Origin: a virus
Length of the DNA stretch: 64,000 bases
Direction: 5' to 3' (one strand)
Virus record (IMG/VR): IMGVR_UViG_3300031758_000022
Coordinates: 39,023 to 103,022 of that record
The notes beneath the pieces were generated by a model. The model searched no databases. It saw only the letters and a list, made by a program, of their open reading frames with translations, and was not told where the DNA came from. The position numbers and the translations under genes were made by a program. Shown here in pieces: positions 3,188 through 39,302 of this stretch. Within the stretch, counting starts at the first letter, position 1. The number at the start of each line of letters is the position of its first letter.

Positions 3188-3706
3188 CTAGTAGTTTTTT
3201 CTTTTAGCATATTGGGCCATTAATAAAGCATCAATTAAGCCATCATGAGGTTTTGTAGCTCTGGTGCCAAATGTAAGTTTCTGTCCTGGGAATATTCTAT
3301 TAACAGCAATTAATGCCATAGCCTTGGTATCATTATTAGTTCTACCAGGTTTTTTAATTACCTCTACTCCTTGAAACATCTCTTTTTGCCATTGCTTTGC
3401 CGGTACCTTAGTATAAGGAATCTTTAATGCAATAGCTATCATTTCTATAGCACCTGACTGATAACCCATACTAAAGGCTGTAGCTTTACTGGTGCCAAAT
3501 ATGACACCTAGTTTTTCAAAAACCATATGAATCTCTCCATTAGCTTTAGCAAGATCTGTTGATTGAATATATTCAATAAGATCAAACAAATCAGAATAAG
3601 AAATTTCATCTTTTATCAATGGAATAGGATATGTTGTCACCTCATCTGAAGAGATAACAGCTATGCCTCCTTTTTTTCCAATATCAATGCCTATGTATGT
3701 TTTCAT
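3188..3706 (-). CDS. RuvC-like Holliday junction resolvase
   Basis: A 172-aa RNase H-fold nuclease. It shows the first acidic strand GIDIGKKGGIAV, a central FEKLG with the second acidic residue, and a C-terminal DGLIDALLMA helix with the last catalytic aspartates. This spacing and length fit the RuvC/poxvirus A22-like resolvases of phages, which cut branched DNA before packaging or during recombination. It overlaps the primase gene by 4 bp, showing translational coupling. Confidence 0.85.
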   Translation of the reverse strand: MKTYIGIDIGKKGGIAVISSDEVTTYPIPLIKDEISYSDLFDLIEYIQSTDLAKANGEIHMVFEKLGVIFGTSKATAFSMGYQSGAIEMIAIALKIPYTKVPAKQWQKEMFQGVEVIKKPGRTNNDTKAMALIAVNRIFPGQKLTFGTRATKPHDGLIDALLMAQYAKRKNY

Positions 3707-4683
3707 GTTTTTAATGCTTGATTGATAAGTGGTGTTAATGTTTGTTTGACTTTTAGTTGGCCGTGCTTTTTAATAGAATCAGATATATCTTTTTCTAATG
3801 GTAGTACAACATAAGGAAGTTTAAAAGCTTCTTTATATCTTTCCATTGCAGTCATACCGGCTACATCATTGTCAAAAATACATACAATCTTTTTGTAATT
3901 AGCTTTTAGGTTCCTTACTATTTCTTCTCTAAGCATGCTACCTTCAGAATCAGGAGCTATAAATTCTATAGGATATCCTAATTTTACTAGAGACATGCCA
4001 TCCTTTAAAGAAGATACTATAACTAACAAAGGTTTTTTAAACTCAAGCTGTTCCATTCCCTGGACATAATCTTTAAGCTTCATAAACTTTTTATCTTTGT
4101 TATAAGGCTGATAAATCTTGTACAGAGTACCATCCTCACGGAAGAAACCATATACATAAGGCTTTTCACTTGTAAAGAAGCTATACACACCATTCTCTAC
4201 TTTGCTAAAAGTAAAAGAACATAAAGGTTCTATGTTATACTTTCCAAGAATATCAGAGTCTATACCGTAGCTTGTCCAATAGTCTGCATCATTCTTATTC
4301 CATTTCCTAGTATTATAAGTTTCAAGCTTATAATTAACTTTTGGAACAATCACTTTTGTTTTTGCAGATTCACCGGTGCGCTTTAAGTAATTAGTGTAAT
4401 CACTAACTATTTTGTTTACAGCATCTCCTAAACTCAGATTAAACATTTCCATGACTAAAGTAATGCCTGTACCACCTTTATCTGTTGAAAAGTCCTTGAA
4501 GTAATAATCTCCATTTTCTCTACAAAAAATAACCATTGATGGAACAGAATCTCTAGCATTAAAAATAGACTTGATTTTTACATCTTGTCCTACTAGTGTT
4601 TCTGGTAATGAACAATACTGCTCAAATATCCAGTTACTTGGTACATCATATGTACTGCTTACTATAATTTTAGTACTAATCAT
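3703..4683 (-). CDS. DNA primase, Toprim domain, zinc-less CHC2-like N-terminus
   Basis: A 326-aa primase of the DnaG group. Residues about 50-90 resemble the CHC2 primase fold (DYYFKDFSTDKGGTG) but lack the zinc cysteines. The Toprim domain near residues 200-300 has the DxD motif FDNDVAGM. The usual Toprim glutamate position (EGxxD) reads SSLKDGMSL, so the acidic residue is serine here. I recall this variant from other Bacteroidota phages. It probably primes replication with the DnaB-like helicase at 6765-7757. Confidence 0.85.
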   Translation of the reverse strand: MISTKIIVSSTYDVPSNWIFEQYCSLPETLVGQDVKIKSIFNARDSVPSMVIFCRENGDYYFKDFSTDKGGTGITLVMEMFNLSLGDAVNKIVSDYTNYLKRTGESAKTKVIVPKVNYKLETYNTRKWNKNDADYWTSYGIDSDILGKYNIEPLCSFTFSKVENGVYSFFTSEKPYVYGFFREDGTLYKIYQPYNKDKKFMKLKDYVQGMEQLEFKKPLLVIVSSLKDGMSLVKLGYPIEFIAPDSEGSMLREEIVRNLKANYKKIVCIFDNDVAGMTAMERYKEAFKLPYVVLPLEKDISDSIKKHGQLKVKQTLTPLINQALKT

Positions 4684-20065: not shown

Positions 20066-20172
20066 AGTCAAGACAGGATTTTACCTGTATGATATACACT
20101 TTGCAGGCAACCTAATCAATGATTCAAGGCTGTATATCTTACCACATTAGCGTCTAATTCCGCCACCTGACT
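20066..20172 (-). ncRNA. tRNA-like RNA with degenerate D- and T-loops and an inserted three-way junction
   Basis: The minus strand has a 7-bp acceptor (AGTCAGG/CTTGACT, one G-T), TG, a leucine-type D-arm GCG GAATTAGA CGC lacking the GG pair, and a T-stem ACAGG/CCTGT with a 6-nt loop TAAAAT lacking TTC. The anticodon and variable region is replaced by about 65 nt in which GATATACA pairs with TGTATATC around two small hairpins (CCT..AATC ATT GATT..AGG and TTGC CT GCAA). It lies 5 bp from the tRNA-Leu. It may be a decayed tRNA or a tRNA-mimic; no clear anticodon can be given. Confidence 0.5.
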
Positions 20173-20179
20173 ATTTACT

Positions 20180-20422
20180 TCAATACTTTAAAAGAGTAAT
20201 GCTATAATCTCCACAGATTTTCTTGAGAGAAGAATCTTGGGCGGTAAATGTGATACATACCGCTGATACTTGCTTGAAGTCATTGGTATAATACTTATTC
20301 CGGCCAGCATCTTCTACAAGATATAGATAGTCTGATGGATGTGAGTTTAGAAATACAACAGGATCAGGTGAGTATAGCTTACACCCAGTAAGCATCATCA
20401 CTAATACTATTAAATATTTCAT
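20180..20422 (-). CDS. Small lipoprotein
   Basis: An 80-aa protein with a lipoprotein signal: MKYLIVLVMMLTGC, where the LTGC lipobox puts the lipidated cysteine at residue 14. The remaining 66 residues are a small soluble domain with two cysteines (CITF and KICGDY). It would sit in the host envelope, where phage lipoproteins often block superinfection; that role is inference. It is 4 bp after the GroES-like gene. Confidence 0.8.
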   Translation of the reverse strand: MKYLIVLVMMLTGCKLYSPDPVVFLNSHPSDYLYLVEDAGRNKYYTNDFKQVSAVCITFTAQDSSLKKICGDYSITLLKY

Positions 20423-20426
20423 TGTC

Positions 20427-20705
20427 TTACCAGATTATTGAAACAGCATGATCTGGTACTAGGAAAAAGAAATCTTCCTCAATCTGAATGACCTCTGAGT
20501 GTGCAATAGCTGCACCTACATATACTAGGTCACCTGGTTTGATGTCTGTTACATCATCACCTACAGCAAACACTTCAAGCTTACTGTATTTCATCATTAG
20601 ATCTTTTTCAAGACTAGCCTCCATCTCAGGAGTTAGTTCTATTAAAGATTCTTTTCTAACAATTGGCTTCTTAATAAGAATTCGTTTGCCTCTAACTTTT
20701 TGCAT
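20427..20705 (-). CDS. GroES-like co-chaperonin
   Basis: A 92-aa protein, the size of a GroES subunit (about 95 aa). GKRILIKKP at the start matches the conserved GroES first strand. A loop of about 30 residues takes the place of the mobile loop, then FAVGDDVTDIKPGDLVYVG follows the GDxVLF region, and a terminal DHAVSIIW ends the barrel. It would cap host GroEL to fold the phage capsid, as gp31 does in T4. Identification is by pattern only. Confidence 0.65.
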   Translation of the reverse strand: MQKVRGKRILIKKPIVRKESLIELTPEMEASLEKDLMMKYSKLEVFAVGDDVTDIKPGDLVYVGAAIAHSEVIQIEEDFFFLVPDHAVSIIW

Positions 20706-20740
20706 AATTTGATGGTTTTAGACCGTAAATGTACAATAAT

Positions 20741-21124
20741 TTATATTGATACAATATAATAAAAGAATGCTAAATCAGCATACATAACCATCAGATAAGC
20801 TCTATCACCTTCTTTATTAAGTCCAACATCAACATGACATCTTATCCCTTCATCATCCTTACCATAGAAGGTAGTAGACTTAGAGTTTTGATTGTATGTA
20901 CCCTCAATATTGATGATGTATAGGTGCTCAGCATAAATGATTACCCTTGACTTCTCTATACCAATCCTAATTGTAGGATAGGTAGCAGGACTCCAATTGT
21001 ATTCAGTTTCATACTCTTTTTTAACACCAATGTTGGCCTGTGTAGTTTCAAACCACACAGTCTCCTGGCAAAAAGCGCTAGTTGTTATGACAACAAATAG
21101 TAATATCAGTATAAGTTTTTTCAT
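20741..21124 (-). CDS. Secreted or periplasmic protein with signal peptide
   Basis: A 127-aa protein with a typical signal peptide (MKKLILILLFVVITTSAFCQ, cleavage after AFC or CQ). The mature part is a beta-rich domain of about 105 residues. It overlaps the membrane gene 21124-21384 by one base. It could act in the host periplasm during infection. No family recognised. Confidence 0.75.
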   Translation of the reverse strand: MKKLILILLFVVITTSAFCQETVWFETTQANIGVKKEYETEYNWSPATYPTIRIGIEKSRVIIYAEHLYIINIEGTYNQNSKSTTFYGKDDEGIRCHVDVGLNKEGDRAYLMVMYADLAFFYYIVSI

Positions 21125-21384
21125 TATTTCTTTGTTTTATAAACTAAATCACAGACTTCTATATACTCTAAATGTTTCATTTGAAGATATCTGTTAAGAA
21201 TCCGGGCCTTTGCCTCTAAATCCTCAACACTGTCTTTTAATGACTGAACATAAGAATAATCTGTTTTATGCTTAATCAATTTAGTGGGCTCTTTAGCACT
21301 CAAACTAAATTGAACTCCTATAATAGCAAGTATTATGATAATAATTACTATTATTGTTACATACTTAAAATTTGTTATTTTCAT
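21124..21384 (-). CDS. Small membrane protein with coiled-coil tail
   Basis: An 86-aa protein. Residues 8-28 (YVTIIVIIIIILAIIGVQFS) are one membrane helix. The rest is a helical, charged tail (YVQSLKDSVEDLEAKARILN). The stop shares a base with the start of 20741-21124. Function unknown. Confidence 0.75.
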   Translation of the reverse strand: MKITNFKYVTIIVIIIIILAIIGVQFSLSAKEPTKLIKHKTDYSYVQSLKDSVEDLEAKARILNRYLQMKHLEYIEVCDLVYKTKK

Positions 21385-21399
21385 AGCTTTTAGAATTGA

Positions 21400-21570
21400 T
21401 TAATTATCTACCGGCCAATAATAATCACAGGTAACTTTACCTTCATTATCTTCATCCCATTGAAAATCTCCATAGGATTGTCTAAATGGATTTGGTTCTG
21501 CAACAAATCTGTAACAAGTTAATCTCAAAGGACAAGTCTTGTTATCACACATTGCGGTATCTGGACTCAT
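21400..21570 (-). CDS. Small cysteine-containing protein, 56 aa
   Basis: An ORF of 56 residues from the ATG at 21568-21570: MSPDTAMCDNKTCPLRLTCY, ending YYWPVDN. Four cysteines (C8, C13, C19, C48) look like a zinc or disulfide cluster. It is flanked 15 bp away by small genes in the same direction. The pattern resembles small phage proteins I have seen but cannot name. Confidence 0.75.
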   Translation of the reverse strand: MSPDTAMCDNKTCPLRLTCYRFVAEPNPFRQSYGDFQWDEDNEGKVTCDYYWPVDN

Positions 21571-21585
21571 TTTGTTGTTTAATTT

Positions 21586-21885
21586 TTATTCTAGACACTT
21601 AGGATAGATGCAGTTGTCATTCAATGTACAACTCTCACCTTCTTTCTTTATTCCATTCTTAGAGCATTTGTCATCTCCTTTGAATATAGGATGGATTGGT
21701 AGATAGTCTTCGTGGTGTATTGTCCGCACACCTTCTAGGTATGCCTCCACAATCTGCTCACGCTCCATTACCTTAGCCTTTTTAATAAATTCATCAAATG
21801 TTGACCAGTCTAAACTTAGATGTGAGGATGAGCCATATTCTTCAAGCTCTTTCTTTAACCAGTCAATTGCCGTTTGTTTACTCAT
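21586..21885 (-). CDS. Small helical protein, paralogue of 21878-22099
   Basis: Ninety-nine residues from the ATG at 21883-21885 (MSKQTAIDWLKKELEEYG). A longer frame exists but the inner ATG is preceded by GGAGGTG, a good ribosome site. It shares MSKQTA(I/V)xWL, KxMExEQxxxA and an (E/I)G core with the next gene upstream, so the two arose by tandem duplication. A cysteine-rich tail (KCSKNGIKKEGESCTLNDNC) is unique to this copy. Confidence 0.8.
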   Translation of the reverse strand: MSKQTAIDWLKKELEEYGSSSHLSLDWSTFDEFIKKAKVMEREQIVEAYLEGVRTIHHEDYLPIHPIFKGDDKCSKNGIKKEGESCTLNDNCIYPKCLE

Positions 21886-22099
21886 TTTCACCTCCGTATG
21901 TTTCGTTGTAGTATTGTTCTGCTTGGTCATTAGTCCATTGAGTATGTGGGTGTTTATCAAACACTCTTTGTCCTTCGATATGGGCATCAATCATCTGCTC
22001 CTTCTCCATTTGCTTGGCTTGTTTAAATATATTCGTCCAAAATGGATGTTGCTCTTTTATTTGCTCTACAAGCCATTCAACTGCAGTCTGTTTACTCAT
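21878..22099 (-). CDS. Small helical protein, paralogue of 21586-21885
   Basis: A 73-aa protein beginning MSKQTAVEWLVEQIKEQHPF, with FKQAKQMEKEQMIDAHIEG in the middle. The family is common in phages of Bacteroidota, function unknown. It overlaps its paralogue by 8 bp and the 52-aa gene upstream by 4 bp, so translation is coupled. AAAGGAG precedes the start. Confidence 0.8.
   Translation of the reverse strand: MSKQTAVEWLVEQIKEQHPFWTNIFKQAKQMEKEQMIDAHIEGQRVFDKHPHTQWTNDQAEQYYNETYGGENE
21889..21895 (-). promoter_or_regulatory. Strong Shine-Dalgarno GGAGGTG
   Basis: On the minus strand GGAGGTG lies 3 nt before the ATG of 21586-21885. It decides the start of that gene. Strong sites like this are uncommon in Bacteroidota hosts. 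Confidence 0.7.
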
Positions 22100-22254
22100 T
22101 GTTTCTCCTTTAGATATTTAACAAAAGTTTGATTACTAAGATCCCAATGTTTACCATTGAAGTAAGCATTAACTCTATTAGTATTACCCATCATAGTTTT
22201 TGTTTCTACAATATACTTTCCTGGGTTTTCAGGAAGAGATTCTAACCATTCCAT
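22096..22254 (-). CDS. Small hypothetical protein, 52 aa
   Basis: An ORF from the ATG at 22252-22254: MEWLESLPENPGKYIVETKT, ending LKEKQ. Its stop overlaps the start of 21878-22099 (ATGA). It is a beta-strand-rich mini-domain with a WDLSNQTFVKYL end. It lies 2 bp past the end of 22257-22559 in the same operon. Confidence 0.8.
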   Translation of the reverse strand: MEWLESLPENPGKYIVETKTMMGNTNRVNAYFNGKHWDLSNQTFVKYLKEKQ

Positions 22255-22256
22255 GT

Positions 22257-22559
22257 TTAGTCTGTCTTAGGGTGTTTACCATTCCACCATTCATATTCTG
22301 AGTTTTCAGTCATGAATCTGATGTAATGATTGTCTTCATCTTTGATTTCTTCTAGTATTTCTACTATTGGAGTAGTCAACCAATAATCTTGATTGGCATA
22401 TGTCCTAGCAGTTACACTGCCTACAAGTATAGAACAACCAACTGTTGGTATATGGCTTACTACTTTATCATAAGTACCATCTTCTTTCCAAGCAATTGCT
22501 TCAGATCTACCGCCATGTTCTTCTACATTGTCTCTTAATCTACGTAAGTGGAATGCCAT
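22257..22559 (-). CDS. Hypothetical protein
   Basis: A 100-aa protein (MAFHLRRLRDNVEEHGGRSE) with a basic start and a beta-rich body that includes CSILVGSVTARTYANQDYW. It is the first gene of a four-gene run of small proteins to 21586. Upstream lies the structured region 22596-22811. Function unknown. Confidence 0.75.
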   Translation of the reverse strand: MAFHLRRLRDNVEEHGGRSEAIAWKEDGTYDKVVSHIPTVGCSILVGSVTARTYANQDYWLTTPIVEILEEIKDEDNHYIRFMTENSEYEWWNGKHPKTD

Positions 22560-22595
22560 AATAATATATGTGGTTTGATTTTAATGCAATAATAG

Positions 22596-22775
22596 TAATA
22601 AGTATGTAGAGAGAAGGGGAAACGTTATCCCCCTTCTGCTCACTAATTAAACTGAAAAACTAAAAACTTAATGTTTGAGTCCTAGACTGACTCATCATTA
22701 TGAGAGCACAACACTCTCTACATACTTATTAGCAAACTGTAGAATCCAAGATATTACTACCAAGGATTCTACAGT
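22596..22775 (-). ncRNA. Candidate structured RNA: 18-bp closing stem with internal hairpins
   Basis: TAATAAGTATGTAGAGAG (22596-22613) is perfectly complementary to 22714-22731, an 18-bp stem across 100 nt. Inside lie GAAGGGG/CCCCTTC (22613-22636) and TGAGTC/GACTCA (22676-22694). Immediately beyond is a 12-bp hairpin, ACTGTAGAATCC (22736-22747) with 22764-22775. No convincing ORF is present. The strand is assumed from the neighbours; the fold is symmetrical and could be read on either strand. Confidence 0.55.
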
Positions 22776-22780
22776 CTATT

Positions 22781-22811
22781 TTATAAAGACTATGCTCAAT
22801 AGTCTTTATAA
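22781..22811 (-). terminator. Hairpin overlapping the end of the ParB-like gene
   Basis: TTATAAAGACTA (22781-22792) pairs with TAGTCTTTATAA (22800-22811) around seven bases and includes the stop codon of 22796-23524. It could stabilise or end the message; the T run on the minus strand is short. Confidence 0.5.
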
Positions 22812-23524
22812 GTTTTGTGTAGCAGATTCAAAAGATATCCCGTATCATGAGGAATTCTTTCAAAATCACTACTGCTCTTGAGAGCATTAATCATTCTGTT
22901 GTGATCATACTTGCTACCAAGAGATCTATAAACAGAACAAAAAGCTGTATGAAATTTATTACTATTGGTTTTAACAACAGAACTTGCTTCAATCAGATTT
23001 TTTGTAAGTACTTCAGAATCAGGCATATTTACTGTGAAATTACCATTTCTAATAGAAGTTAGACCTCTACCTGATGTAGCAGATCCTCCAAGAATGCTAG
23101 CAGAAATTGCTACAGAAAGACCATTTTTGATAAAATGTTCCTTAAGTCTAAAGTAATTCTCATTACCAAGACCACAATATGCATTAACATAATCTGTCAA
23201 TGTCCATTTTTGTTGAACATTATTCAGAGTAGCCATCATATCCACAATTGTTGATACAGAATCTGTTTCAACAACAATACAGTGTACTTTTTTAATACGC
23301 AATCTCTTAAGAGATTCAACCAAGTGCTGACCATCAACATTGTAATACTCAGCCTTACCAGTAATTGCTGTAGTATATGCAAGAACAGGAGTTCTTAATA
23401 TACCTACACGGGCAATTGATTTTACTAGTGCTTGGACATGTTTTTCATTTTTTGCTCTATTGAAAGTAAGCTCCTTGATTTTATCAACAGCTATTTCAAC
23501 AAATTTGTGCTTAGAAAATTCCAT
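22796..23524 (-). CDS. ParB/Srx-fold protein
   Basis: A 242-aa protein. Residues 10-110 match the ParB N-terminal nuclease/CTPase-like fold: a VDKIKELTFNRAKNEKHVQAL start, SIARVGILRTPVLAY, then NVDGQHLVESLKRLRIKKVHC in the position of the GxHRxxA motif. A helical C-terminal half follows. It may bind DNA or act on nucleotides; a partition role is unlikely in a lytic phage. Structured non-coding regions flank it on both sides. Confidence 0.75.
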   Translation of the reverse strand: MEFSKHKFVEIAVDKIKELTFNRAKNEKHVQALVKSIARVGILRTPVLAYTTAITGKAEYYNVDGQHLVESLKRLRIKKVHCIVVETDSVSTIVDMMATLNNVQQKWTLTDYVNAYCGLGNENYFRLKEHFIKNGLSVAISASILGGSATSGRGLTSIRNGNFTVNMPDSEVLTKNLIEASSVVKTNSNKFHTAFCSVYRSLGSKYDHNRMINALKSSSDFERIPHDTGYLLNLLHKTYKDY

Positions 23525-23571
23525 TTGTGTTTTACTTTTTGTGTTTTCTTAATTTAAATAGTAATAAAAAT

Positions 23572-23600
23572 AAGGGGACCGGATGTTTCACCGGTCCCTT
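23572..23600 (-). terminator. Strong terminator of the 23.6-24.1 kb RNA region
   Basis: GGGACCGG pairs with CCGGTCCC around ATGTTTCA, followed on the minus strand by a T-rich run (TTATTTTTATT). No gene ends here, so it must end a transcript from the non-coding region to its right. Confidence 0.85.
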
Positions 23601-23615
23601 ATGGCATCACGTAGA

Positions 23616-24116
23616 GCTTGAGAGAAAGTATTAGAACACCCTAACATTATACATGTTAGGACATAAACAGTGCAATATTCTATACGAGTGTTAGGCATCT
23701 CAGCCAATTCCCTCCAATACTACAGTATACTTGTTCTCTACTGGTCACAAAGAGACCGTCCAATACCTCCATATAAAAATAGGAAAGGGTACACCTTCTT
23801 ACCGACACTTCATTTTTCCAGGAAAACCTGTCCAAAAACTTATTAATTAATACTTTAGAACATTACAGGATAAAACATCCCTTTACTGTTGTTAAACATT
23901 AATCAACATTACATACTTCCTATGTATTGTTCTTGCATAAAAAATCCACATCAAACTGCTACCTTTTCATTATGTTCTTCACGCCAGAGGTTTAGCAGCC
24001 TCAGCCCTAAACGTACAGAATAATATAATAACTACTAGGATATTAGCTGGCTTTTCTTATACTTTGCGTAGTAGGCATTTATGAGTGTAAGTCTTTCAAT
24101 ACACTGCCTCTCAAGC
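23616..24116 (-). ncRNA. Candidate ornate large non-coding RNA, about 500 nt
   Basis: A gap of about 500 bp without a credible ORF. Its ends are complementary: GCTTGAGAG at 23616-23624 and CTCTCAAGC at 24108-24116 (9 bp). Inside are CCTAACAT/ATGTTAGG (23640-23660), a 10-bp hairpin with one mismatch at 23905-23931 around CTTCC, CTGCTA/TAGCAG (23956-23998), CTACTA/TAGTAG (24032-24074) and AGTGTA/TACACT (24084-24105). A strong minus-strand terminator (23572-23600) lies just beyond. The design resembles large phage RNAs such as ROOL or GOLLD; the family is not established. Confidence 0.55.
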
Positions 24117-24121
24117 AATTA

Positions 24122-24958
24122 TTATAACTCCAGAGTTTTTAACTTCTCTGGTATGTCAATGTTATAATGCATTTTAACATGTTTACAGCTTTCATGATAA
24201 TGAATAGTACTACAACCGCAGTTATGACCTTTTTCAAAATGTGTAGCAAAGTGTAAATCATAGTCTTTAGGGATATCACCCCATGCACCACCACATCCTT
24301 GACTTAAAACAAGAACCTTTTTTCCCTTAGGTACTAATTTTTTAATATGGCCTAAGTAGTAATTCAGATCATCTCCTGAAGGTAAACCTTTAGAACTGAT
24401 ACATAATCTACTGCCATAATAAATCTTAACACCTTTGATCTTTTTAGCTTCTTCAATCAATGTTCTATGAAACCCTTTATCAAGGCTATTGTAACCAACT
24501 GATTCATCTACAAATAGATAAAGCTCTTGTTTGGTTTCAACAGTCATCTTCTTTTCATATAAAGCAAGATGAGGTTCTGATAGTAATTTCTTGAACACAC
24601 GCGGATAATTAAGCTTATCTTCAATAAGAAATTCAACCTTTGATAGTCTGATTAATTCTCTTTTGATTAAAGCTCTTTTATTCTCTGCATCTACTTTGGT
24701 AGAATCCATTCCTTTACCTCTTGATTTGCTAGGATTTTCTTTACTCTTAGCAGGTTGAGGTTTTTTAACAGATTTTTTCTGAGAAGGATTCTCTTTTCTT
24801 AACCTAGTAGCTACGCTTTGTAGCACCTCCGGACTGAGATCATTAACAGAATCAGGAGACACATTATACTCTTTACCTTTATAAGTATGAGTAAAACTTT
24901 TACTTTCTGATTTCATATAATAATCATCAAAAAGTTGTTGTTGTCTAAAATGTGGCAT
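24122..24958 (-). CDS. Protein with degenerate VWA-like domain (partner of MoxR module 3)
   Basis: A 278-aa protein. The first 90 residues are lysine/serine/proline-rich and probably disordered. From residue 145 a VWA-like fold begins: ELYLFVDESVGYNS in place of DxSxS, later KVLVLSQGCGG. The end holds a Cys/His cluster (HNCGCS, HYHESCKH) that could bind zinc. The canonical MIDAS serines are partly missing. It is downstream of the AAA ATPase 25025-25888, separated by a terminator-like hairpin. Called a VWA by analogy with modules 1 and 2; confidence is moderate. Confidence 0.6.
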   Translation of the reverse strand: MPHFRQQQLFDDYYMKSESKSFTHTYKGKEYNVSPDSVNDLSPEVLQSVATRLRKENPSQKKSVKKPQPAKSKENPSKSRGKGMDSTKVDAENKRALIKRELIRLSKVEFLIEDKLNYPRVFKKLLSEPHLALYEKKMTVETKQELYLFVDESVGYNSLDKGFHRTLIEEAKKIKGVKIYYGSRLCISSKGLPSGDDLNYYLGHIKKLVPKGKKVLVLSQGCGGAWGDIPKDYDLHFATHFEKGHNCGCSTIHYHESCKHVKMHYNIDIPEKLKTLEL

Positions 24959-24972
24959 ATAATAAAGTAAAA

Positions 24973-25000
24973 AAGGGGTGAGACCTGCATCCCACCCCTT
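24973..25000 (-). terminator. Terminator after MoxR module 3
   Basis: AAGGGGTG pairs with CACCCCTT, 25 bp past the stop of 25025-25888, followed on the minus strand by a run of T. Confidence 0.75.
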
Positions 25001-25024
25001 GATTAATTAAAAAACAAATGCTTA

Positions 25025-25888
25025 TTAAAGCATTGAACCAACATACGCTTCAGTATTCATTTGATAAGTAGACCTTAAATAATGAATAAACTTTTTCTGG
25101 TCCTCTTCTTCTTGAGAAAACTTCCATAGTAAAGCTCTATACTTCAATTCTTGAGAAGCTTTTCTACTAATAGGACAAGATCCTATAAAGTACAACTCTT
25201 GAATTAAGTCAGCCACCTGATTTTGACTCGGTTTCTTTTCCACCTCAAGCTTTCTATAAGCCATAACTAGATCAATTAAGAAATTGAATTTGCTAGTATT
25301 ATATGGTACAGTAAGCATAAGCCTAACTTGTTCAATAAGTTCAGCTCTTTCTGGAAAATGGAATTCGCGAATCAAGGATATACGCCTGTCAAGAGCATCC
25401 TCTAGTTCTCTTCTCTTATTAGATGTAAGTACAATGAACAAATTGTTTTTGTTACCATGTATAACACCTGTAAGAGGATCATTTAGAAGACATTCTTGCA
25501 TATAAGACAAAAGAAAAGTATCCACAGAAGGTTTAGCCTTATCAATTTCATCAATCAATAATACAACCTTGTGTGTTTGAGACTTCTTTAATGCCTGTAG
25601 TAAGTAGCCATCTTTCATTGCATCACGGCCAGATGTGTTTACATCTGTCATTGCATCAACCAAAGTGCCTAAGTCCCAGTTGAATACAAGCTGCTCTGAT
25701 GATACACCGTCATAACACGGTGCAAAAATCAGCTCAGCCTGTAATTCAGAAGCTAGAAACTTAGCAAAGCTAGTTTTACCAGCACCTGGTTCACCAAACA
25801 AAAGCATACTAGGTACGCATACAGTAGGATTGTTCATCAAATACTTGATATAACTAATATCCTGCAGTTTACTTTGGCTAAGTATCAT
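25025..25888 (-). CDS. MoxR-type AAA+ ATPase (module 3)
   Basis: A compact 287-aa ATPase. Walker A is GEPGAGKTS near residue 35, pore-loop-like PCYDGVSSEQ follows, Walker B is VVLLIDEIDKAKP near residue 110, sensor 1 is IVLTSNKRRE near residue 152, and an arginine-finger-like DRRISL follows. It overlaps the gene upstream by one base. It is followed by 24122-24958, which has a degenerate VWA-like domain, making a third ATPase module. Confidence 0.9.
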   Translation of the reverse strand: MILSQSKLQDISYIKYLMNNPTVCVPSMLLFGEPGAGKTSFAKFLASELQAELIFAPCYDGVSSEQLVFNWDLGTLVDAMTDVNTSGRDAMKDGYLLQALKKSQTHKVVLLIDEIDKAKPSVDTFLLSYMQECLLNDPLTGVIHGNKNNLFIVLTSNKRRELEDALDRRISLIREFHFPERAELIEQVRLMLTVPYNTSKFNFLIDLVMAYRKLEVEKKPSQNQVADLIQELYFIGSCPISRKASQELKYRALLWKFSQEEEDQKKFIHYLRSTYQMNTEAYVGSML

Positions 25889-26511
25889 TACTTATCACCT
25901 CCTAATCTTTTCTTAAGACTAATTAAGGCTCTAAGTAACTCTTTAAGTTCTTCAGGAGCATCTTCAGGAATATCATCTTCAGATGATAATTCAGAAACAG
26001 ATTCTTTAGAAGTTCCGGCTTTGATTTTAATTTCATCTCCTCTTCCAAGAGAATCAAGATGCTTTTTCAATTCATCAAGATCTGAACTAATCTTAGAAGA
26101 AGCCATTCTTGTATGAACTCCTTCATACACAGAAACAAAACCAGCTACCATTAGAAAGAAATGAATCTCTGGATCATCCATATTAATAAGATGTTCAAGT
26201 ACCTTAGATCTAGCATAACTGCCTTCTTCAGGATTCTCTTCAGATTCTTTCTTGGCAAAATCATGAAAAATCTTTACTAATTTTTCCTCGGCCATTTCTT
26301 TAGCCCATTGTTTGGAATAGCCTATAGCCTTCCAAAAGTCTATCTCAGGAGTGTGGTCAAATGGCTTTCTCCCTTTAGAGAACTTTCCATTACCACCCTC
26401 ATCTGGCAGATTAGTTGCTGCCCACATAAACGCTTTGTTACTAATAAGATTAGTAGGAGCATTGCTCAAAGCCTCCATAACTTGATTTTTGTAGTTACTT
26501 CCTTGACTCAT
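25888..26511 (-). CDS. Hypothetical protein preceding MoxR module 3
   Basis: A 207-aa, mostly helical, acidic protein. It has no motif I know; a FHDFAKKESEENPEEG region and a serine/glutamate-rich SELSSEDDIPEDAPEELKEL stretch near the C-terminus are notable. Its stop shares a base with the start of the ATPase, so it is probably a third subunit or substrate adaptor of that module. Confidence 0.75.
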   Translation of the reverse strand: MSQGSNYKNQVMEALSNAPTNLISNKAFMWAATNLPDEGGNGKFSKGRKPFDHTPEIDFWKAIGYSKQWAKEMAEEKLVKIFHDFAKKESEENPEEGSYARSKVLEHLINMDDPEIHFFLMVAGFVSVYEGVHTRMASSKISSDLDELKKHLDSLGRGDEIKIKAGTSKESVSELSSEDDIPEDAPEELKELLRALISLKKRLGGDK

Positions 26512-26925: not shown

Positions 26926-26949
26926 GGTTAAGGGATTAAACGTTAAATG

Positions 26950-27021
26950 CCCCTTTAGCAGGATTCGAACCTACACACTCTGTTTAAAAACAGTGCTCTA
27001 ACCAGTTGGAGCTATAAAGGG
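26950..27021 (-). tRNA. tRNA, isotype uncertain (Lys-like), shortened anticodon arm
   Basis: Minus strand: acceptor CCCTTTA/TAAAGGG, D-arm GCTC CAACTGGTTA GAGC, T-arm GTAGG TTCGAAT CCTGC, 5-nt variable loop. The anticodon arm is only about 14 nt (CTGT TTTTAA ACAG) where 17 is normal, so the anticodon could be TTT (Lys) or TTA; I do not assign it. The D- and T-arms are textbook. CCA is not encoded. Confidence 0.8.
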
Positions 27022-27890: not shown

Positions 27891-27928
27891 GTAAGTTTTA
27901 AGTTAATTACGGTTTATCCCTCTGCACT

Positions 27929-28180
27929 CAGTTGTAATAGCATTCAAACTGTATTTCTACAGAACTCAAGCGTATATCAGGATTAGAGTTTTTATTTCTT
28001 CCTATCTATTACAACTGCTATCCCTTGGGAAGATAGTTATGGTGCATTAATAATGAGGGTTATCTGAACACCCACAAACGCCAGCATCTTACTGGATAGT
28101 TATTTACAATATTTAATGTGCAGTGTAATAACAAAAGGCACAAGTATTCTCTATACTCACAGATATCCCGCCTGTGTATA
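27929..28180 (-). ncRNA. Candidate structured RNA with 12-bp long-range stem
   Basis: CAGTTGTAATAG at 27929-27940 pairs exactly with 28006-28017. Between them are CTGTA TTTC TACAG and AACTC/GAGTT. Beyond lie CTATC/GATAG, CCAG/CTGG, AGTAT TCTCT ATACT and CACAG/CTGTG, all perfect. The region is read on the minus strand by assumption; the adjacent minus-strand gene is 27507-27890. Confidence 0.5.
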
Positions 28181-28210
28181 TTATTAACCCCCTACTATAT
28201 AAGAGAGAGA

Positions 28211-28221
28211 GAGAGGATAAG
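28211..28221 (+). repeat. GAGAGGATAAG box 1 (DnaA-box-like)
   Basis: GAGAGGATAAG; the minus strand contains TTATCCTCT, 7 of 9 matching the DnaA box TTATCCACA. A second copy lies 22 bp further. Confidence 0.45.
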
Positions 28222-28232
28222 AATAATACAAA

Positions 28233-28243
28233 GAGAGGATAAG
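28233..28243 (+). repeat. GAGAGGATAAG box 2 (DnaA-box-like)
   Basis: Exact second copy, spaced 22 bp from the first, about two helical turns. A related GAGAGGAATAG follows at 28272. Confidence 0.45.
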
Positions 28244-28316
28244 AAGAAACGTAGTAGCTATGTAGTTAAAAGAGAGGAATAGAGAAAAAAGTAAGTTGAG
28301 GTAGAGTATAAAAAAA

Positions 28317-28343
28317 GAGAGAGTGGATTACCCACCCTCTCTC
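28317..28343 (-). terminator. Terminator after 28387-28917
   Basis: GAGAGAGTGG pairs with CCAC-CTCTCTC (two-base bulge), followed on the minus strand by six T. The stop of 28387-28917 is about 43 bp upstream. Confidence 0.8.
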
Positions 28344-28386
28344 TTCAACATAATACACTAACACTCAACAACTTAGAGACACTTGG

Positions 28387-28917
28387 TTAGTCTCCAAGTG
28401 TCTCATTTTCTTCCTCTTCCTCTGTGAAGACCTCACTACCGCCAACTTCATCCTCACTGCTTGCCAGAATGAGTCTACCTCCTTGATTTTCAAGGGATTG
28501 CATCTGCATTTGTATAGCACTTGCCAATGCAGGATACTTAATTGCTTGTGCTTTAAGCTCAAGCAGTTCAGTGTTATCAGCTGCGAAGCCAATTCTACCG
28601 TCTTCCTTCACATAGTAAGAGAGTTGTTTCTCTTTACCCATATGTGTGGAAGTGTGATAGAGTGGCACTTCCTTACCTGCAATAAGCTGTGGCTTACCTT
28701 CAGGTGTGGTTAGTACTTTGTAGTAGTCAGTGCCATCTTGGCGCTTAAACTGCTTGTACATAGCGAGTTCCTTAGGACTGGCATCCATAATGCCATAGCG
28801 CCACATAGTCACTACTTCAGTAAGTGGCTTGTTAGTCACTTCATTGAGAACAGGTAAACCGTTTACATCCTTGATGATGCGGGCTTTCTCGTAGCCATTG
28901 ATTAGTTTTAACTTCAT
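28387..28917 (-). CDS. Hypothetical protein, GC-richer unit 1
   Basis: A 176-aa soluble protein (MKLKLINGYEKARIIKDVNG) ending in a very acidic tail (TEEEEENETLGD). No family recognised. Codon choice is GC-richer than most of the window, as in its neighbours to 30.5 kb. It has the shared motif at 28997-29008, a long leader with a hairpin, and its own terminator, so it is a single-gene unit. Confidence 0.8.
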   Translation of the reverse strand: MKLKLINGYEKARIIKDVNGLPVLNEVTNKPLTEVVTMWRYGIMDASPKELAMYKQFKRQDGTDYYKVLTTPEGKPQLIAGKEVPLYHTSTHMGKEKQLSYYVKEDGRIGFAADNTELLELKAQAIKYPALASAIQMQMQSLENQGGRLILASSEDEVGGSEVFTEEEEENETLGD

Positions 28918-28965
28918 AACTGTTTGTTATTTACTTGATTTATAATTGTTTACTTAGTCTCTTGT

Positions 28966-28996
28966 ACCTTTTAGATTTATCTAAAGGTACCTTGTA
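28966..28996 (-). other. Leader hairpin of unit 1
   Basis: GGTACCTTTAGAT and ATCTAAAAGGTAC pair with one bulge immediately downstream (minus strand) of the shared motif, in the leader of 28387-28917. Confidence 0.6.
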
Positions 28997-29008
28997 TAAT
29001 AGGTTATA
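28997..29008 (-). promoter_or_regulatory. Shared motif, unit 1 (TATAACCTATTA)
   Basis: Exact copy on the minus strand. It lies 79 nt upstream of the start of 28387-28917, just past the terminator of unit 2. Confidence 0.65.
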
Positions 29009-29024
29009 GAAAATAATAATGAAT

Positions 29025-29044
29025 ATTAAAACGTTAGTTTTAAT
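29025..29044 (-). terminator. Terminator of unit 2
   Basis: ATTAAAAC pairs with GTTTTAAT around GTTA (minus strand TAAC tetraloop closed by C-G). No gene ends here; it closes the non-coding unit 29026-29240. Confidence 0.7.
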
Positions 29045-29240
29045 AAATGCACCCAAGAATGTGGTGAGACTTAACTCACTGATTCTCAGTACCAAAGTGC
29101 TCCTGCTCCACAGGGCAGAGACAACTTAGTCTCTATTCTCACTCATCACTTGAGTGTAAATAGAGGATAAGGTGAACACAGAGGATAATCCACAAGTTAG
29201 AAATAACTTGGTCCCTTACAGATTGCTAACACAATCTGTA
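29026..29240 (-). ncRNA. Candidate non-coding RNA made of tandem hairpins (unit 2)
   Basis: It starts next to a shared motif at 29241-29252 and ends at a terminator (29025-29044), but has no ORF above a few codons on the minus strand. Minus-strand order: TACAGATTG/CAATCTGTA, CAAGTTA/TAACTTG (TTTC loop), CACTCA/TGAGTG, AGAGAC/GTCTCT, CCTG/CAGG, ACTGA/TCAGT, GTGAG/CTCAC, terminator. Seven or more local stems in about 200 nt are far more than expected by chance. Two AGAGGATAA boxes also lie inside (29162, 29180). Confidence 0.6.
29162..29190 (+). repeat. Paired AGAGGATAA boxes (DnaA-box-like)
   Basis: AGAGGATAA occurs at 29162 and 29180, 18 bp apart. The second runs into AATCCACA, itself close to a DnaA box. 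The same sequence occurs twice at 28.21-28.24 kb. Confidence 0.4.
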
Positions 29241-29252
29241 TAATAGGTTATA
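29241..29252 (-). promoter_or_regulatory. Shared motif, unit 2 (TATAACCTATTA)
   Basis: Exact copy on the minus strand. It is followed at once by the TACAGATTG hairpin of the non-coding unit, and lies after the terminator of unit 3. Confidence 0.65.
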
Positions 29253-29274
29253 AAGAATAATAATGAAAAAAAAA

Positions 29275-29300
29275 AATAACAGGGTGTTAACCCTGTTATT
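29275..29300 (-). terminator. Terminator of unit 3
   Basis: AATAACAGGGT pairs with ACCCTGTTATT around GTTA (TAAC on the minus strand), followed by a run of T. It begins just past the stop of 29305-29706. Confidence 0.9.
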
Positions 29301-29304
29301 ATCA

Positions 29305-29706
29305 TTACTCCTTCTCATCCAACTTCTCCTCAGGAGATTCCTCAGGAGCGTTAGCTCCAAAGATCCTGTCCAGCATTTGATCACCAAGAATCCGTAAGGC
29401 TTCAGGTGATTTCTGAGCCATATATTCTAAGTTCCCGAAGGACTGATCATCAATGTGCCAAGTACCCTTGGTATCATTGCGCTCAATGCTCTTGCCTGCC
29501 ATAGGCGGAAGCCAAGAGAAGTAGAGCATCTCCTTAGTGACCTTATCAAAGGCGCCGCAGGTGCCCTTGACAATATCCTTACGGAACAAGGCAAGCTCTG
29601 CTTTGCTACCGTGGACGGTATAAGCATAGCGCGTCTGTTTTCTGTTAGACACTTTGTTCATCATAGTGAACTGTGTCTTAAGCTTGATTGTGAGTGTGTT
29701 TCTCAT
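29305..29706 (-). CDS. Hypothetical protein, GC-richer unit 3
   Basis: A 133-aa protein. Met1 or Met15 could be the start; Met1 is 26 nt from the shared motif, like other units, and is preferred. The middle is DNA-mimic-free and soluble (YFSWLPPMAGKSIERNDTKG), the end acidic (EESPEEKLDEKE). No family recognised. Codons are GC-rich. Confidence 0.75.
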   Translation of the reverse strand: MRNTLTIKLKTQFTMMNKVSNRKQTRYAYTVHGSKAELALFRKDIVKGTCGAFDKVTKEMLYFSWLPPMAGKSIERNDTKGTWHIDDQSFGNLEYMAQKSPEALRILGDQMLDRIFGANAPEESPEEKLDEKE

Positions 29707-29732
29707 TGTATTATGTATTTATGTAAACTTAG

Positions 29733-29744
29733 TAATAGGTTATA
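29733..29744 (-). promoter_or_regulatory. Shared motif, unit 3 (TATAACCTATTA)
   Basis: Exact copy on the minus strand, with 26 nt between it and the ATG of 29305-29706. Confidence 0.7.
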
Positions 29745-29754
29745 AAAAAGAGGA

Positions 29755-29772
29755 GTAAGGCGTTAGCCTTAC
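29755..29772 (-). terminator. Terminator of unit 4
   Basis: GTAAGGC pairs with GCCTTAC around GTTA, with the minus-strand T run TCCTCTTTTTT. It follows the stop of 29792-29932 by about 20 bp. Confidence 0.85.
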
Positions 29773-29791
29773 CCTCACCCCACAAAAGAGC

Positions 29792-29932
29792 CTAAGCTCT
29801 TTTCTTCTCTGTGCCTAACAACAGAGCAGATGCTACAATGCAGAGCATAGAGATGCCGGTTAACAGGGCATCACCTATAAACATAGATGCAAACAAGCAG
29901 ATAATGGATGTAGATAACAAAACGGTATTCAT
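29792..29932 (-). CDS. Small membrane protein, 46 aa (unit 4)
   Basis: An ORF from the ATG at 29930-29932: MNTVLLSTSIICLFASMFIG, ending GTEKKRA. Two hydrophobic helices fill residues 3-40. It is alone in its transcription unit with a motif 24 nt upstream and a terminator behind. Membrane mini-proteins in phages often change host membrane or defence behaviour; function unknown. Confidence 0.75.
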   Translation of the reverse strand: MNTVLLSTSIICLFASMFIGDALLTGISMLCIVASALLLGTEKKRA

Positions 29933-29956
29933 AGCATTGGATTTAGTACAAACAAG

Positions 29957-29968
29957 TAATAGGTTATA
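29957..29968 (-). promoter_or_regulatory. Shared motif, unit 4 (TATAACCTATTA)
   Basis: Exact copy on the minus strand, with 24 nt to the ATG of 29792-29932. Confidence 0.7.
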
Positions 29969-29974
29969 ACAAAA

Positions 29975-30000
29975 AAAAAGGGGATGTTAGTCCCCTTTTT
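29975..30000 (-). terminator. Terminator of unit 5
   Basis: AAAAAGGGGA pairs with TCCCCTTTTT around TGTTAG, with a run of T on the minus strand. It follows the stop of 30011-30313. Confidence 0.9.
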
Positions 30001-30010
30001 CTGTGAATCC

Positions 30011-30313
30011 TTAAAGGCTTGGCTCTTCAGAGTCAGCATCTGCCAACGCATAGCAATTCCTCGCAAGGTTTGCTGCCTCCATAAGTTGAATCTGTAAGAA
30101 CTCACGGTTAATAATTGATTTGAACTCTTTAAGAGATTCATCCCCATACTCCCCATTGGAAATAGCATCAAAGGCTGTAGATAATTCACGAGCCTTCTGT
30201 CTGATACCAATGAGTTGAGGTGTGTAACTCAATAAGAGTTCATTTAATAATTCAGCATCTATTGATGTTGATGTGCGTCCCGCGCAGGACAAGATTACTT
30301 TTCCTTTTTTCAT
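30011..30313 (-). CDS. Hypothetical helical protein, unit 5
   Basis: A 100-aa protein: MKKGKVILSCAGRTSTSIDA, then a helical body (LLNELLLSYTPQLIGIRQKA) and an acidic end. No family recognised. It is a single-gene unit with motif 26 nt upstream and a terminator behind, GC-richer than average. Confidence 0.75.
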   Translation of the reverse strand: MKKGKVILSCAGRTSTSIDAELLNELLLSYTPQLIGIRQKARELSTAFDAISNGEYGDESLKEFKSIINREFLQIQLMEAANLARNCYALADADSEEPSL

Positions 30314-30339
30314 AATGATTGTGTATTAATGTAATACAG

Positions 30340-30351
30340 TAATAGGTTATA
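30340..30351 (-). promoter_or_regulatory. Shared motif, unit 5 (TATAACCTATTA)
   Basis: Exact copy on the minus strand, with 26 nt to the ATG of 30011-30313. The leader holds GTATTA CAT TAATAC. Confidence 0.7.
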
Positions 30352-30354
30352 AAA

Positions 30355-30380
30355 ATATATAGGACATTAGTCCTATATAT
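30355..30380 (-). terminator. Terminator of unit 6
   Basis: An 11-bp stem: ATATATAGGAC pairs with GTCCTATATAT around ATTA. It is 4 bp past the stop of 30384-30521. Confidence 0.85.
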
Positions 30381-30383
30381 ATA

Positions 30384-30521
30384 CTAGTTGCAACCAACCC
30401 AAGGTACATAGATGTAGCCTGGGTGCAGCCACAGCTCCACAGGATGCATGTTCAAGGTGTGCAAGGCATCGTCAAAGGTGAGCAACTTGCCTGTGTCAAC
30501 AAGGTAAATGAATTCATTCAT
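30384..30521 (-). CDS. Small protein, 45 aa (unit 6)
   Basis: An ORF from the ATG at 30519-30521: MNEFIYLVDTGKLLTFDDAL, ending YIYVPWVGCN. It contains WLHPGYIYV and a C-terminal cysteine. The frame is closed by a terminator and opened by a shared motif 26 nt upstream. Single-gene unit, function unknown. Confidence 0.75.
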   Translation of the reverse strand: MNEFIYLVDTGKLLTFDDALHTLNMHPVELWLHPGYIYVPWVGCN

Positions 30522-30547
30522 GGTAGAAAAATTTAATTTTTCTAGCC

Positions 30548-30559
30548 TAATAGGTTATT
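30548..30559 (-). promoter_or_regulatory. Shared motif, unit 6 (one mismatch)
   Basis: Minus strand AATAACCTATTA, one base different. It has 26 nt to the ATG of 30384-30521; the leader forms TAGAAAAAT/ATTTTTCTA, a 9-bp hairpin. Confidence 0.65.
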
Positions 30560-30720
30560 CCTCTTAGTTGCTTGATAGGGGGTACCACCACTCTCAGACT
30601 GGGCCGGGGCCTGTTTTATTATAACCCACCATCCTCTACTCTTCAGACAAAATTTTTTTTACCATAAAATTTTTATACTGTCCCGAATATCAATATCTTA
30701 GCAATCTAATAATTACAATC
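30560..30720. promoter_or_regulatory. Divergent region between the minus and plus halves
   Basis: The only large strand switch of the window. It holds a GC-rich GGCCGGGGCC stretch near 30603, then a long T tract and AT-rich DNA before the first late gene. It must contain the start of rightward transcription; no clear -33/-7 pair is visible. Confidence 0.55.
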
Positions 30721-38930: not shown

Positions 38931-39302
38931 ATGGCAATTGTAAATCAAGTACAGAAAAAAATAAGAATGGAAGTCTGGGATATTACTAAGTTCCAGCTGG
39001 CTATTCATTGTCATCTACATGACATATCTATTTCTAGCCTTGATCTTAATTGTTTAACTTTATTAGCCCTTTACGGAGAGAAAGAACTTACAGAGTTTTG
39101 TGAGGCTGCTGTTGAAAAGAAAATTTTCGGCAGCAGCCAATCTGTAAGGAATGCTCTAGCTAAAGCAGAAAAAAGAAAGCTTATTGTAAAACAGGGAAGG
39201 AGTAAGAAGAAGATCCAGATTAATCCTGAGATAAGGATTCAAACCAATGGTAACATACTCCTTGACTATAAAATTGTAAGAATTGAATCCAAAAAAGATT
39301 AA
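38931..39302 (+). CDS. Putative winged-helix DNA-binding protein
   Basis: A 123-aa basic protein. Its middle (FCEAAVEKKIFGSSQSVRNA) reads as a helix-turn-helix with a following basic wing (KAEKRKLIVKQGRSKKKIQI). It overlaps the next gene by 20 bp. It may regulate the late operon or bind DNA for packaging. Confidence 0.65.
   Translation: MAIVNQVQKKIRMEVWDITKFQLAIHCHLHDISISSLDLNCLTLLALYGEKELTEFCEAAVEKKIFGSSQSVRNALAKAEKRKLIVKQGRSKKKIQINPEIRIQTNGNILLDYKIVRIESKKD

Follow-up and report, generated by a model that had tools for sequence, protein, structure and literature searches.

The stretch of DNA analyzed here, which we call the window, comprises 64,000 bases (positions 39023 to 103022) of the 103,022-base virus record IMGVR_UViG_3300031758_000022. 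Between positions 28997 and 30559, its minus strand carries six copies of a 12-base element, TATAACCTATTA, packed into 1.6 kb. Five copies are exact, and the sixth, AATAACCTATTA, has a single mismatch. All six coordinates given in an original prediction, made from the letters of this DNA alone, proved to be right, as did the spacings of 26, 26, 24, and 26 nt that it gave between four of the copies and a downstream ATG. One further copy heads a non-coding, strongly folded RNA, and another has a 79-nt leader. Each copy would start one short transcription unit, such that the array comprises five small genes and one structured RNA (Table 1).

Table 1. Features of the element array and its surroundings, in window coordinates.
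Feature	Position	Strand	Remarks
Element 1, AATAACCTATTA (one mismatch)	30548..30559	-	26 nt before ATG at 30521
Unit 1 open reading frame (ORF), 45 aa	30384..30521	-	no family match
Unit 1 terminator	30355..30380	-	11-bp stem, loop TAAT, T tail
Element 2, TATAACCTATTA	30340..30351	-	26 nt before ATG at 30313
Unit 2 ORF, 100 aa	30011..30313	-	no family match
Unit 2 terminator	29973..30002	-	loop CTAACA
Element 3, TATAACCTATTA	29957..29968	-	24 nt before ATG at 29932
Unit 3 ORF, 46 aa, hydrophobic	29792..29932	-	no family match
Unit 3 terminator	29753..29774	-	loop TAAC
Element 4, TATAACCTATTA	29733..29744	-	26 nt before ATG at 29706
Unit 4 ORF, 133 aa	29305..29706	-	relative G047 has an ortholog, 25% over 135 aa (E 5e-12)
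Unit 4 terminator	29275..29300	-	loop TAAC
Element 5, TATAACCTATTA	29241..29252	-	precedes non-coding unit
Unit 5, putative structured non-coding RNA, ~230 nt	29010..29240	-	no ORF
Element 6, TATAACCTATTA	28997..29008	-	5' hairpin in the leader; ATG at 28917 lies 79 nt downstream
Unit 6 ORF, 176 aa	28387..28917	-	relative G047 has an ortholog, 25% over 138 aa (E 1e-12)
Unit 6 terminator	about 28311..28345	-	loop GTAAT, T7 tail
Conserved RNA-like block	28056..27914	-	between unit 6 and the 127-aa ORF
ORF, 127 aa	27507..27890
tRNA gene	26949..27021	-	odd anticodon loop

In shuffled sequence, 0.03 exact copies of TATAACCTATTA are expected in 64 kb, both strands included, and in every one of 30 shuffles, the most that any 12-mer reached within 2 kb was 2 copies, compared to the 5 observed here. 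The plus strand has no exact copy, and no further one lies elsewhere in the whole record. The motif is found in the block of early genes only. When two mismatches are allowed, the count is at background level (19 versus 18.0 expected), indicating that the signal resides in the exact copies.

The units are bounded by putative intrinsic terminators. Terminator-like sites number 7 in the region from 27900 to 30720, compared to 1.6 +/- 1.1 in shuffles, and the T tracts of the four minus-strand terminators of units 1 to 4 begin 3 to 22 nt ahead of the next element. The earlier proposal that every unit is one gene or RNA with a terminator of its own therefore holds clearly for units 1 to 4 and less well beyond them: the 3' hairpin of unit 5 (ATTAAAAC-TAAC-GTTTTAAT, about 29044-29025) has a weak T tail, the terminator of unit 6 lies outside the interval originally described, and none precedes element 1. 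The fold of unit 5 is stronger than that of shuffled sequence (z = -3.8, or -5.9 with slightly different ends), its first hairpin starts 1 to 3 nt past the element, and it has no Rfam match. Family searches of the unit proteins gave no convincing match for any of them, and a search of IMG/VR for homologs of the early proteins by peptide patterns found none.

Judged by its proteins, the phage is crAss-like (Crassvirales-type). Its portal matches phrog_6547 (E 1e-96) and its major capsid protein (MCP) matches phrog_11589 (E 1e-31), both of which are PHROG head-and-packaging families, and the MCP also matches, at 22-28%, crAss-like records such as cr10_1, cr6_1, and Cellulophaga phages phi17:2 and phi4:1. 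No DNA similarity to named phages was found. Downstream of the array, the minus-strand block carries genes for a DNA polymerase, a primase, a DnaB-like helicase, and a nuclease, and the array thus opens this replication-strand block; the plus-strand block carries the virion genes. In crAss001 and phi14:2, early genes occupy the corresponding position, and their transcription is attributed to the virion RNA polymerase (vRNAP) (PMC8375218; PMC10136315). A homolog of this enzyme, 2,009 aa in length, is encoded outside the window, at positions 20067-26096 of the record. It matches PDB 6vr4 chain A (phi14:2 gp66) at E 5e-23, carries the sequence SDFDID (DFDID, a DFDxD motif) at residue 814, and also matches 98 phage records including crAss-phage RNA polymerases; among the matches listed, most are crAss-like. 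The crAss-like vRNAPs are among the strangest RNA polymerases and are structurally related to the polymerases of eukaryotic RNA interference. Their extreme divergence points to unusually high evolutionary rates (PMC7886860). A search of the record for a Sigma70_r2 domain found no protein, while its control was positive.

A search with the MCP identified hundreds of viral contigs; identity ranges from 83 to 94% in the best 80. Exact TATAACCTATTA is missing from the records of 62 relatives, and the early regions of relatives were therefore read de novo, without an assumed motif. Across all viral contigs, exact TATAACCTATTA before an ATG yields scattered single matches only. Seven relatives have units of terminator, element, leader, and ATG on the early strand, and each of these genomes has an element of its own in 5 to 15 copies: CARCTTTTATTG in G014 (15 copies), ATAACACTCTTTATAAT in G023 (15), CTAACCCTAAACT (also written CTAACCCtaaACT) in G018 (5), TACCTCTTCTnACT in G034 (6), AACATCTTTnTACT in G056 (11), TAAACAGCTCAnAACT in G059 (7), and TTTGGAACTCATTAnTG in G047 (6). 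In G047, whose vRNAP is 49% identical, AACCTATTAGGATAGAA at the start of the early block matches AACCTATTAGGCTAGAA at element 1 of the window. In a matrix scan of six relatives, all listed sites outscored the best match on the opposite strand, and the arrays extend no farther than ~5 kb from the divergence point. Over the eight genomes, a terminator T tract occurs no more than 30 nt upstream of 46 of the 71 elements, compared to 3-13% for positions drawn at random from these spans. In several genomes, the array ends in elements that precede a folded stretch with no ORF. One candidate element, the motif CCCTTTTT of G004, was rejected because it is a terminator stem.

The arrangement strongly suggests promoter function. 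One candidate is a promoter for the host's housekeeping polymerase, either of the sigma-70 type or of the Bacteroidota TTG/TAnnTTTG type. TATAAC resembles a -10 box, and some copies of the element of G023 contain TATATTTG. As the original prediction noted, however, the element is unlike TAnnTTTG, a motif absent at all six sites, and TTG-TAnnTTTG pairs number 11 in the record versus 14.5 in shuffles. The sigma-70-like sites in the region (12 versus 8.0 +/- 2.3) lie off the elements save for one overlap at 29241, and what lies upstream of the elements is a terminator, with no conserved -35/-33. Moreover, the elements differ among close relatives, as a host consensus would not. We therefore disfavor a housekeeping promoter and consider it very unlikely. 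Rather, TATAACCTATTA would be a single-box early promoter with transcription starting probably near its last A, a position chosen because the unit 5 hairpin begins directly after the element; leaders would then be ~25-28 nt.

The proteins encoded behind the elements were compared among the eight genomes, which detected 12 orthologous unit pairs; element identity was computed for nine pairs. G047 encodes orthologs of units 4 and 6 of the window; their order is retained, and each follows a copy of the G047 element. Likewise, G034_10345 and G059_8965 encode proteins that are 84% identical behind different elements. Identity among elements is 0.78-0.97 within a genome and 0.52 between orthologous units, compared to a random-position null of 0.50 +/- 0.09. 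Conservation is limited to the element, and the flanks are not homogeneous, so simple unit duplication fails to explain the pattern. On these comparisons, the element changes in concert across the genome, as promoters should if their reader is encoded by the phage, and as a conserved host sigma consensus would not predict. A single reader per genome with drifting specificity, followed by all of its sites, would explain this behavior. The units of different relatives contain mostly unrelated genes behind the same genome-specific element, with just 12 orthologous pairs in eight genomes, which fits the earlier suggestion that such cassettes could allow gene gain and loss.

This variation in unit content, together with the placement of the element at unit boundaries, might also point to a site that acts in RNA, where a regulator binds the leader or the transcript is processed, or to one that serves as an operator or as a seam at which gene cassettes recombine. 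A seam used for recombination alone, however, has no need to stay homogeneous within a genome while differing at orthologous units between genomes. In addition, the 5' hairpins of units 5 and 6 directly follow the element, as expected if the RNA starts there, and a terminator directly before an element means that a new start is needed. We regard this explanation as quite unlikely.

Taken together, the single contiguous box, its confinement to one strand and to the early block, the fixed leader in four units, the terminator before and gene or RNA after, the lack of TAnnTTTG, and the concerted change between relatives support the earlier proposal that the promoter has a reader other than the host's housekeeping sigma factor. 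The vRNAP is the natural candidate, since it acts first and diverges far more than the MCP: its best segments are 34-46% identical between genomes whose MCPs are 83-94% identical. We infer that it is the reader, and our somewhat favored interpretation is that TATAACCTATTA is the core promoter of the early regulon of this environmental, aquatic-type phage, transcribed by its giant enzyme. In this model, the vRNAP would be injected with the DNA and would initiate at each element; an intrinsic terminator would close most units with the next promoter directly after it, so that products could be dosed separately, with no read-through from upstream units. The vRNAP would evolve fast enough to give every lineage a distinct promoter sequence, with all units of a genome changing together.

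Several observations weigh against this interpretation. Similarity between elements is uncorrelated with vRNAP identity (Mantel p = 0.57, seven genomes), although the elements of G014, G023, G056, and G059 resemble one another around an AACA-like core more than shuffled columns do. A second class of element, TTACTATCA[TC]C, is common to seven relatives with diverged vRNAPs (G004, G009, G021, G025, G045, G046, and G054), with 18 occurrences on the early strand and 1 on the late strand; these seven lack the other arrays. No clear array was found in G011, G039, G055, G057, G058, phi14:2, crAss001, or Lbo-JY46, the last being a Leptolyngbya phage that is the best named match to the MCP (28%). Finally, no terminator precedes element 1 (30548), and about one third of the elements have no detectable upstream terminator.

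The first two of these observations loosen the tie to the vRNAP and raise the question as to whether the element is instead read by the RNA polymerase of the host, after redirection by a phage factor, such as an activator or a sigma-like protein, that is injected or acts very early. Concerted change needs merely some phage-encoded reader, and the early genes of crAss001 include a transcriptional regulator (PMC8375218). Nevertheless, the record has no sigma-70 domain, the elements lack the conserved upstream box that host polymerase would also need, and early transcription of phi14:2 is rifampicin resistant (PMC10136315). We consider a redirected host polymerase unlikely, if less so than the two explanations above, and retain the vRNAP as the preferred reader.

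Promoters of other phage-encoded virion polymerases offer a comparison. The early promoters of AR9 and phiKZ, read by vRNAPs, consist of a single AT-rich box (AAATATATATTAT-6N-G in AR9) that was predicted from over-representation, and 33 of 34 were confirmed (PMC5312081). The elements described here are similarly contiguous, AT-rich single boxes that precede many early genes and can be predicted from over-representation, and the polymerase of AR9 and phiKZ is also carried in the virion (PMC5312081). That polymerase is a multisubunit enzyme, whereas the one encoded here is a giant single chain; the promoter sequence is different, and the window's terminator-promoter units are packed into one 2-kb array. 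The non-early promoter of AR9 includes AACA-6N-TA (PMC5312081), which AACA-TCTTTG-TA of G056 resembles; we treat this similarity as a lead only. Thermus phage P23-45 has AT-rich pre-early promoters for its vRNAP, with a motif confined to relatives having that enzyme (PMC10770324). Its polymerase is a single-chain, two-barrel virion enzyme that has been compared with the crAss vRNAP (PMC10770324). The motif is similar among P23-45 relatives, whereas here each lineage has its own. The layout is the same in phi14:2 and crAss001, which have early genes heading the replication-strand block and a vRNAP homolog but show no terminator-linked repeated element by the same search. We found no description of crAss vRNAP promoters in the searchable literature, and a review (PMC10136315) never uses the word "promoter."

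Several other features of these genomes merit description. Between unit 6 and the 127-aa ORF lies a distinct, strongly conserved RNA-like block with the layout TGCAC-CTCAC-TTCCCAAGG-GTGAG-CAGTTGTAAT...ATTACAACTG-AGTGCA-GAGGG. It comprises three helices, TGCAC/GTGCA, CTCAC-TTCCCAAGG-GTGAG, and CAGTTGTAAT/ATTACAACTG, the last with a variable insert, followed by GAGGG. At least 120 viral contigs contain the block, as do many relatives, among them G057 with three copies, and its middle helix shows compensatory changes over 97 distinct copies (for example, CG 57, TA 18, and AT 9 at one pair). It has no Rfam match even at E <= 5 and appears to represent a structured RNA family that has not been described. 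No TROVE/Ro60 protein that could partner the RNAs was found in the record or in 14 relatives. The nearby tRNA gene is confirmed by Rfam and is reported by ARAGORN as tRNA-??? with a two-base anticodon. By eye, the early region of phi14:2 (L221 4020-4500) seems to contain a tmRNA-like gene, with the sequence end GGGGGTTCGAATCCCCCCGACTCCA.

The loops of the window's terminators in units 1 to 4 are nearly all TAAC/TAAT-like, and relatives favor GTAAT, GAAA, and TAAC; these loops may reflect a host or polymerase preference. Elsewhere on the window's minus strand, for example at ~24972 (ORF 24122-24958) and ~4696 (ORF 3703-4683), and also in the relative L207, a hairpin and T tract lie just 8-20 nt upstream of the following gene's ATG. 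This leaves too little room for an intervening promoter, and such hairpins perhaps reflect read-through or the protection of mRNA 3' ends inside operons. In G018, the vRNAP reading frame is broken between query residues 543 and 606 and contains a TAA there, which may reflect an intron or a split gene.

More broadly, we propose, with slightly less than even confidence, that an aquatic clade of crAss-like phages carries arrays of one-gene units whose promoter is replaced wholesale from lineage to lineage in step with vRNAP specificity. This would be the first description of crAss vRNAP promoters and would constitute a natural series of specificity switches. The eight genomes yield explicit promoter candidates, and since orthologous genes follow different elements, specificity can be tested by swapping elements and polymerases. 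If the proposal is true, it shows a virus replacing the promoter of a whole regulon while the genes stay, and the element would flag early, host-takeover genes in phage genomes that lack annotation.

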